64,000 nucleotides of DNA from Verrucomicrobiota bacterium (GTDB taxonomy: Bacteria > Verrucomicrobiota > Verrucomicrobiia > Verrucomicrobiales > DEV007), in contig JAHDID010000005.1 of the NCBI GenBank assembly GCA_020630975.1, positions 63,493-127,492 of the forward strand. The letters run 5' to 3'. The translations under genes and the position numbers were made by a program. Under the pieces are notes generated by a model that saw only the letters and a list, made by a program, of their open reading frames with translations, did no database searches and was not told where the DNA came from. Below, one piece after another: positions 13,202 through 39,736 of the stretch (positions are counted from its first letter, which is position 1; every line of letters starts with the position of its first letter).

Positions 13202-13533
13202 CATCGTTCGAAGGCGGTCAAGCGGATTTCGTGCTCTGTTTATTTTGAGATAAGCAGAGTTCGGCATCTGAAAAGGCAGGGTAAATTTTGAGATTTTTTG
13301 ATTGTGAGATCCACAACAGGGCGAAGCTCTGCTGTGGCTTCATCGTCTAAAATTTCGTGTGAGTTGTAGGCTCAGTTTTCCGTGGCTTGGAAGCTACCGC
13401 AGTAGTTGAGGTCCGCCCGTCGCCTCGATTGCGAAATATACCCGAATACCTCCATACCCTGTATCCAGTTTCAGTCAAGTCACCACCACCACTCAGCGCA
13501 CTCTTCACCAAGCATCAGCTTTTATCCCATACT
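13202..13533 (+). other. Long rpoB leader region with hairpin
   Basis: About 330 bases with no gene. A hairpin at 13312-13338 has arms CCACAACAG and CTGCTGTGG (eight pairs, one mismatch, nine-base loop). No known riboswitch or L10/L1 target is recognised. Could hold autogenous control of rpoBC. Confidence 0.4.
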
Positions 13534-38263: not shown

Positions 38264-38959
38264 ATGACAAGATTCCTCACCCTGTTTAGTCTAGCGATTG
38301 TTTTTGCCTCTTCGGCAAATGCTCAGTTTAAACCGCCGCGCAGCGCCTTTCCCATCAGCGAGCTGGCAGAGGCCAAGGAAAAGGCGATAAAGAGGGAGAA
38401 GCCTTTGGCTTTCATCATGTATAGCCCTAAATGAGGCAACTGAGGCCCTGCCGCTGCTGCCCGTGAGGCAGCATTTAAAGATTTAGGTCGCTACACAGAG
38501 GTCGTCTATTACACCCCTGAGCAGAAAGATAAGGTGCCTGAGTCGGTCAGAGCCCTGAGACCATCTGGCAGTCAAAAGTTTCCATATGCTTCTATCACCT
38601 CGCCAGACGCAACGGTGGGAATCAAATTCGTGTCCAATTCTGTGATCAGGACTCAGGAGTGTAGGGATCTCATGAGGGAGATCCTAAAAGAAGCTGAGAC
38701 TAAGCCCGAGTACCTGTCTACCACTGGCGGGGCTTCTCAGAGTGATGCGGAATCGGATAGCACGACGCAAACGGCATCGAAATTTCCGACACCGGTCATG
38801 GCGTGGAGCAATACTCAGGGCAAGATCATCAATGCCTCTGCTGTGAAAGTGGAGGGAGGGAAAGTGATCTTCGATATGGGTGGTCGAGAGATTCCCTATC
38901 TGGTGAGCGATCTGTCGCCTGAGAGTCAGGGGAAACTCAGGGAATGTTTGGGTGAGTGA
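38264..38959 (+). CDS. Secreted thioredoxin-like selenoprotein (UxxU) with SHD1-like C-terminal domain
   Basis: 231 aa when two UGAs are read as selenocysteine. Signal peptide MTRFLTLFSLAIVFASSANA (cleavage after ANA), then a helix and the strand LAFIMYSP followed by K-U-G-N-U-G-P (Sec57, Sec60), placed exactly where thioredoxin-fold proteins carry CxxC, then a FPYAS segment that may supply the cis-Pro. The C-terminus (about 170-225, WSNTQGKIINASAVKVEGG, LSPESQ) is SHD1-like. Signal peptide, redox motif and downstream domain share one frame with only UGA (38432, 38441) interrupting. A 7-bp hairpin follows (38455-38473). A conventional annotation would start at 38534 and lose the active site. 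Ends at TGA 38957 as a true stop. Confidence 0.85.
38455..38473 (+). promoter_or_regulatory. Candidate bacterial SECIS element for the UxxU protein
   Basis: Seven-pair stem TGCTGCC / GGCAGCA closes a five-base loop CGTGA. The loop begins 18 nt after the second UGA and 27 nt after the first, both in the range known for bacterial SECIS. One hairpin may serve both UGAs. Confidence 0.7.
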
Positions 38960-39160: not shown

Positions 39161-39736
39161 ATGAAATATTTAGCAATTTTACTCAGCCTGGGTCTTTTGG
39201 GGTTGAGTAGTGCCGAGGCACAATGACCGTCTAAAAAGAAGAAGGCGAGCCAGTCTGGCGCGTCGACATGAAGTAAGTCTAAGAAAAAGAACCAGTCTGG
39301 TTCTGATAAAGACAGTGCTGTAAAAACAGTATCTCTGGATATCTCTGGAATGAAATGAGGCGTGGGATGCGTCAAAAAAGTGCAGTCTGCACTTTCCGGA
39401 GTCGAAGGAGTCGCCAAAGCTGAAGTAGCGATGGGATCTGCCGTAGTATCGGGGGATGCCACAGCTGAGGCCTTGGTTAAAGCAATCGAAGTCGCTGGGT
39501 TCAGCGCAAAGGAGAAACCCACAGCACTCGTGCTCGAGGTCTCTGGAATGAAATGAGGCAATAGTTGCGTCAAAAAAGTGCAGTCTGCACTTTCCGGAGT
39601 CGAAGGAGTCGTGAGCGCGAAAGTATCTATGCCTGATAAGGCGGAGGTGACAGGTTCGGCATCTGCCGAGACACTGATCGCTGCCGTCAAAGAGGCAGGG
39701 TTTTCCGCCAAGGTGTGCGAAGAGTGCGCCAAATAA
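39161..39736 (+). CDS. Secreted tandem HMA-type protein with four in-frame UGA (Sec) codons
   Basis: 191 aa read with UGA as selenocysteine at residues 22, 37, 66 and 132. Signal peptide MKYLAILLSLGLLGLSSAEA, then a Lys/Ser-rich linker carrying Sec22 and Sec37, then two copies (66 residues apart) of a heavy-metal-associated-like domain, each starting ISGMKU.../VSGMKU... and continuing VKKVQSALSGVEGV. The canonical HMA motif is GMxCxxC; here it is GMK-U-GVG-C and GMK-U-GNS-C, one residue longer, with the first Cys replaced by Sec. Each UGA is followed at 23-26 nt by a hairpin with a GUC apex. The tail is VCEECAK. Probably binds soft metals in the periplasm. A decayed gene is unlikely because only UGA, never UAA or UAG, interrupts the frame. 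Confidence 0.87.
39245..39263 (+). promoter_or_regulatory. Candidate SECIS for Sec22
   Basis: GCCA-GUC-UGGC apex with three more pairs below an A-G mismatch. Loop begins 26 nt after UGA 39224-39226. Confidence 0.65.
39288..39304 (+). promoter_or_regulatory. Candidate SECIS for Sec37
   Basis: Perfect seven-pair stem AGAACCA / TGGTTCT with a GUC loop, 23 nt after UGA 39269-39271. Confidence 0.72.
39377..39395 (+). promoter_or_regulatory. Candidate SECIS for Sec66 (first HMA domain)
   Basis: Perfect eight-pair stem AAAGTGCA / TGCACTTT with a GUC loop, 26 nt after UGA 39356-39358. The apex resembles the UGCAGGUCUGCA core of E. coli fdhF. Confidence 0.78.
39575..39593 (+). promoter_or_regulatory. 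Candidate SECIS for Sec132 (second HMA domain)
   Basis: Same AAAGTGCA-GTC-TGCACTTT hairpin as at 39377, again 26 nt after its UGA (39554-39556). Copied along with the domain. Confidence 0.78.

Follow-up and report, generated by a model that had tools for sequence, protein, structure and literature searches.

Proteins with two selenocysteines (Sec, U) in the spacing UxxU are already known (PMC13188914 and PMC2398784). PMC13188914 lists selenoproteins of the Prx-like, metal-binding (NF041115) and FmdB types with this spacing. SelL occurs in aquatic animals and in marine bacteria (PMC2397514, PMC2398784). For the bacterial SECIS element (bSECIS), the model given in PMC13188914 has a loop of 3-9 nt, a stem of 4-16 bp, G followed by G or U at the start of the loop, and a spacing of 16-37 nt. 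A first-pass annotation of the locus described here, made from the sequence, had called double-Sec proteins rare; this is a fair statement, but precedents are listed, with UxxU in three kinds of selenoproteins.

The window, i.e. the whole stretch of 64,000 nucleotides analysed, is located on contig C31 of the genome of a marine Verrucomicrobiales bacterium (7.1 Mb, 95.8% complete), the source of the selenoprotein. With TGA read as U, a frame of 231 amino acids reads MTRFLTLFSLAIVFASSANA-Q...SPKUGNUGPAAA..., including the motif K56-U57-G-N-U60-G-P; its coding part ends at 38956, followed at 38957 by another TGA as the terminal stop (Table 1). The sole listing from a table-11 gene caller is a truncated ORF starting downstream of the motif, and therefore both the signal peptide and the Sec motif are lost from the annotation, as the first-pass annotation had foreseen. 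An alternative genetic code was judged unlikely, since long ORFs nearby are open under table 11. Sec machinery, the lack of which had been named as one of the points that would tell against this reading, was found by profile search of the same genome: SelA (411 bits), SelB (272.6 bits) and SelD (301.1 bits), all above cut-off, and in addition a tRNA-Sec (58.6 bits) with the anticodon TCA (UCA in RNA).

Table 1. Positions of the features within the window (first letter of the window = 1)
Feature	Position	Strand	Basis or remark
Selenoprotein CDS, 231 aa	38264..38959	+	TGA read as U; two internal UGA plus UGA stop; homology spans both UGAs
Predicted signal peptide, residues 1-20 (MTRFLTLFSLAIVFASSANA), cut likely before Q21	38264..38323	+	Sequence; model helix 2-18
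Thioredoxin-fold domain, residues about 25-145	38336..38698	+	VIA-align Z up to 9.9
UGA, probable Sec57, lineage-specific, -3 from the conserved Sec	38432..38434	+	One genome
UGA, Sec60, first position of the family UGPC	38441..38443	+	U in 70/86 rows
Ala63 codon, +3 from U60; partner Cys there in most relatives	38450..38452	+	Family alignment
SECIS-like hairpin TGCTGCC-CGTGA-GGCAGCA, 7 bp, 5-nt loop CGUGA (38462-38466)	38455..38473	+	Fits bSECIS model
Truncated GTG-start ORF, 141 aa	38534..38959	+	Sole listing from table-11 gene caller
Pro107 codon, thioredoxin cis-proline position	38582..38584	+	Invariant in 66 relatives
SHD1 (SLA1 homology domain 1), residues 176-231	38789..38956	+	2hbp match
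Second selenoprotein: signal peptide, Lys-rich linker, two HMA domains	39161..39736	+	PF00403, 1.1e-23

All sequence features listed in the first-pass annotation (leader, KUGNUGP, 7-bp hairpin and SHD1 part) were recovered, and its assignment of the product as a secreted thioredoxin-fold protein with a C-terminal SHD1-like part agrees with the following observations. The hydrophobic leader, evident in the sequence and helical in the model, also opens the relatives in the family alignment. In an AlphaFold2 model built with 66 family sequences (mean pLDDT 87.5), residues 22-155 matched thioredoxin-fold structures by VIA-align, 3ira with Z 9.9 (123 residues aligned, rmsd 3.7) and 7tkv with Z 9.7, and the best Foldseek match, also to a thioredoxin fold, had an E-value of 4e-4. 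The cis state of Pro107 is presumed from the modelled fold. The SHD1 domain of the model matched 2hbp with Z 8.2 and rmsd 1.4 over 56 residues (VIA-align). Among the 66 family members, matches were found to Pfam Thioredoxin_7 (10 members), PF03983 (SHD1; 11 members, best 1.1e-8) and, weakly, Redoxin (2 members). The window protein itself gave no match in Pfam, with SHD1, Thioredoxin_7 and AhpC-TSA included, nor in NCBIfam (E up to 1), NF041115 included.

The protein belongs to a large, unnamed family, delimited in the present analysis, whose homologs can be aligned with it through the UGA, beginning at the signal peptide and reaching as far as SHD1 (E-values down to 4e-29); full-length relatives occur across the GTDB family. 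In a sample of 387 genomes of the order, the thioredoxin part was detected in 114, representing 25 of 50 genera, and most of the top-scoring members in this sample carry an in-frame UGA. All matches in the phylum sample outside the order are without internal UGA, and those read there have CPLC, CCLS, CGLA or no Cys. The commonest motif of the family is UGPC; UGPS/UGPA, UPTC, UHAC and CPLC/CPKC are also found. No single model in Pfam or NCBIfam 20.0 covers the whole protein, and standard annotation therefore probably cuts or misses such proteins; since the close relatives are mostly Sec forms, selenoprotein prediction from Cys homologs is also weak here. No close relative came up when genome contigs were searched with the window protein; with UGPC relatives as queries, the search gave 22 named records, for the most part from Verrucomicrobiales, with Roseibacillus and Akkermansiaceae among them. 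Conserved gene neighbours of the family were not found, except those common to closely related genomes, and conserved neighbour genes gave no hint of a substrate or reductant.

Further family members are encoded in the window's own genome on contigs C33, C40, C79, C116 and C137. One of these, the UGPC paralog L041 (G000:C33:116969-117600), is split over two frames by a frameshift or an assembly error. In another genome, three family genes stand in tandem (L045, G017:C180), one with UGPC, one with CHHC and one without any Cys or Sec. The members of the UGPS/UGPA branch (L111-L117, L047 and L049-L051) keep the Sec and the hairpin and have neither a Cys at +3 nor a second Sec; these are apparently lone-Sec thioredoxin-fold proteins.

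The second of the two UGAs, U60, corresponds to the conserved Sec of the family. Its column in the family alignment (n=86 rows) holds U in 70 rows, C in 13 and another residue or a gap in 3, and in a weak profile match to human TXNDC12 the first Cys of CGAC is the counterpart of the family Sec. The 7-bp hairpin reported downstream of this UGA in the first-pass annotation was measured at the same place, its loop being located 18 nt from U60 and 27 nt from U57. With 7 of 7 positions paired, G-U in the loop and both spacings within range, the hairpin has the features of the bSECIS model as given in PMC13188914. An equally long hairpin follows 3.9% of the 2288 TGAs in the window, however, so that its presence is weak evidence taken alone, and single-sequence folding of the region was no better than that of shuffles (z 0.24). 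A TGA at 13360 in the window also has a good hairpin; the frame there is not gene-like.

Comparison among relatives gave a clearer picture. In 52 distinct relatives, 85.7% of the stem cells were paired, against 73.3% in shuffles (0 of 500 as high), changes were found on both sides in all 7 stem pairs, and stem covariation was 0.387, against at most 0.151 when the partner strand was slid. This set was picked for G-U at the loop position, so that the invariance of the loop there is partly an effect of selection. Among the 70 Sec rows, loop G-U is present in 69, in either of two registers (56 and 13; one exception). The loop stands 18 nt from the UGA in Sec members, a distance that an additional codon extends to 21 nt in one branch. 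Sec members form 6.0 of the 7 stem pairs on average, against 3.5 in Cys members. The homology across the UGA together with the covarying hairpin makes the U60 call secure, and in our judgement U60 is almost certainly decoded as Sec.

The position of U57 is different. The first-pass annotation took the two UGAs for the two thioredoxin cysteines, and expected Cys or Sec in homologs at both positions. This expectation holds for U60 as described above and fails for U57: neither Cys nor Sec occupies the U57 column in any relative within the order (86-row alignment) or in the phylum samples. The partner Cys of most relatives is located at +3 of U60, where the window protein has Ala63; with U60 as the nucleophile, as the family alignment indicates, the protein lacks the canonical CxxC or UxxC arrangement, in which the second chalcogen stands at +3. 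With Ala at +3 and the second Sec at -3, the two Sec residues of the window protein are not the two thioredoxin cysteines. In agreement with the rest of the UGPC/SHD1 family, the window protein has a signal peptide, the thioredoxin fold, Sec in the U60 column, an equal distance to the hairpin and the C-terminal SHD1; in contrast, the relatives carry one Sec and usually a Cys at +3. An alignment setting U57-U60 against the U-G-P-C of the relatives was also considered and discarded: two gaps would have to be introduced, and the match UGPxxxxxxAF, which runs without a gap, would be interrupted. Some doubt is left on this point by a one-residue insertion in the loop of the window protein relative to its relatives.

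The lack of Cys or Sec in the homologs lowers the confidence in U57, and is nevertheless compatible with Sec. Only one draft assembly shows U57, and a single base change would remove the TGA. It may accordingly be asked whether this TGA stems from faulty sequencing or from a recent nonsense mutation, the true protein being a single-Sec protein or a pseudogene; the long tree branch of the window protein (1.77) could also mean relaxed constraint. The frame is, however, intact on either side of U57, with no other damage in 231 codons, the hairpin is paired at 7 of 7 positions, U60 is kept and the SHD1 model is confident, all of which make an error or mutation quite improbable. We therefore judge it highly probable, with less assurance than for U60, that U57 is also decoded as Sec. 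As to its origin, tandem duplication of a 9-nt unit is possible: AAATGAGGC and AACTGAGGC are identical at 8 of 9 positions, but the net insertion is just one residue.

A second branch of the family with two in-frame UGAs was found in three genomes (L090, L091 and L092, from G276, G360 and G268, respectively). In these proteins the additional TGA is at -5, giving U-x4-U, the residue at +3 is Thr, and the -5 TGA is kept although the codons between the two UGAs vary. As in the window, two in-frame UGAs are combined with the absence of a +3 Cys and with a hairpin past the second UGA, which is the single hairpin and has its loop 33 nt from the -5 TGA. Unlike in the window, where Sec is at -3 and Ala at +3, these proteins have Sec at -5 and Thr at +3, and they stand apart from the window protein in the tree. 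This occurrence of double Sec without a +3 Cys makes an added upstream Sec credible for the window. Forcing the window protein and L090-L092 into one clade costs 5.4 log units (p-AU 0.27); two origins of the second Sec thus appear favoured, short of proof, by the tree as drawn, and a single origin is not rejected. Only tentatively, we suggest that at least twice in the order (-3 and -5) the resolving chalcogen may have shifted from the C-terminal to the N-terminal side of the nucleophile, being itself Sec and inserted with one SECIS.

For the function of the window protein, our main proposal, to which we give an even chance, is an exported thioredoxin-fold selenol oxidoreductase with SHD1, in which U60 would act as the nucleophile and U57 as the resolver, the two forming an Se-Se pair. 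In the model a helix starts at residue 61, immediately after U60. Located just ahead of this first helix of the active-site loop, Sec60 would be the ancestral nucleophile and would attack an oxidised bond in the substrate. The Cys that usually acts as resolver at +3 would have been lost (Ala63), and Sec57 gained in its place across the nucleophile. A U57-U60 diselenide, for which SelL gives a reported precedent (PMC2397514), would then be formed and be reopened by a periplasmic reductant. The one SECIS hairpin past U60 would direct Sec insertion at both UGAs. The first-pass annotation suggested an unusually reactive periplasmic enzyme, either a reductase or an oxidase, which is a plausible, if putative, assignment.

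It is also conceivable that U60 alone matters, U57 being decoded as Sec but remaining a catalytic bystander in a lone-Sec enzyme like those of the UGPS/UGPA branch. Among the 15 Sec members without a +3 Cys, 11 have no second Sec (UGPS/UGPA), indicating that a lost +3 partner needs no replacement, and U57 is unique among the relatives. On this reading, however, it would be a coincidence that a costly Sec sits precisely three residues away from the nucleophile in a protein that has also lost the +3 Cys, and a similar pairing is seen in the L090-L092 branch; we regard it as unlikely.

The gene of the double-Sec protein is followed on its own strand, 200 bp further downstream, by the gene of a CopZ/MerP-like protein with two HMA domains, which is interrupted in frame by four UGAs (39224, 39269, 39356 and 39554). 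Two of them lie in the metal motifs MKUGVGC and MKUGNSC, with the spacing UxxxC and not CxxC, and the other two in the Lys-rich repeat linker behind the signal peptide. A hairpin with an AGUCU tip follows each of the four UGAs, that of U22 being weak (4 bp), at a spacing of about 22-26 nt, which is near the 27 nt of U57. As known prokaryotic families go, two to three Sec residues are the upper range in PMC13188914. The HMA protein scored 68 bits against NF041115, below the cut-off of 95. Single-HMA relatives (L169, G000:C79; L165, L166 and L170), most of them with lipoprotein-like leaders, form a small group of Sec-HMA proteins within this GTDB family; the motifs found in them are MKUGSSC, MTUGAVC, MTUVVNC and MTUGVKC. 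The 9-mer AAATGAGGC (Lys-Sec-Gly) is found at 38429-38437, 39353-39361 and 39551-39559, i.e., around U57 and around both UGAs of the HMA motifs; its recurrence may be due to chance, codon context or sequence exchange.

The HMA protein is a possible functional partner of the double-Sec protein, and its adjacency makes soft-metal binding a serious rival to the redox proposal, with U57 and U60 gripping Hg(II), Cu(I) or a comparable ion between them as a diselenolate clamp. The Sec residues in the metal motifs of the neighbour, the existence of the UxxU metal-binding family NF041115 in NCBIfam and the several Sec transport proteins tied to metal resistance in PMC13188914 agree with such a role. 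In contrast, the fold and the invariant Pro107 are typical of thiol oxidoreductases, UGPC in most relatives is a redox motif, and HMA relatives of the neighbour are found in just 6 of 75 family genomes, the gene neighbours being unconserved. Metal binding was on these grounds considered improbable, and the selenol oxidoreductase is retained as the main proposal.

Two questions can be approached with the window as a natural test case. One is whether a single bacterial SECIS serves two UGAs at a distance of 9 nt from each other, the other what benefit a diselenide brings to a thioredoxin fold outside the cytoplasm. With the matched series UGPC, UGPS/UGPA, KUGNUGPA and U-x4-U, both questions are directly testable.

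In comparison with known systems, Thioredoxin_7, DUF255 (DsbH-like) and TXNDC12 share the fold and the general redox architecture with the window protein, but have Cys motifs. NF041115 shares two Sec residues in the spacing UxxU, but is an HMA-type family and matches the neighbouring gene, not the window protein. The covered part of the table in the 2026 inventory of prokaryotic selenoproteins contains no mention of SHD1 or SLA1. SelL and the Prx-like selenoproteins are alike in UxxU, with a diselenide reported for SelL (PMC2397514), and are set apart by description from the window protein, in which UxxU consists of an upstream Sec and the conserved nucleophile. As far as the searches reach, this arrangement of the Sec pair is new.
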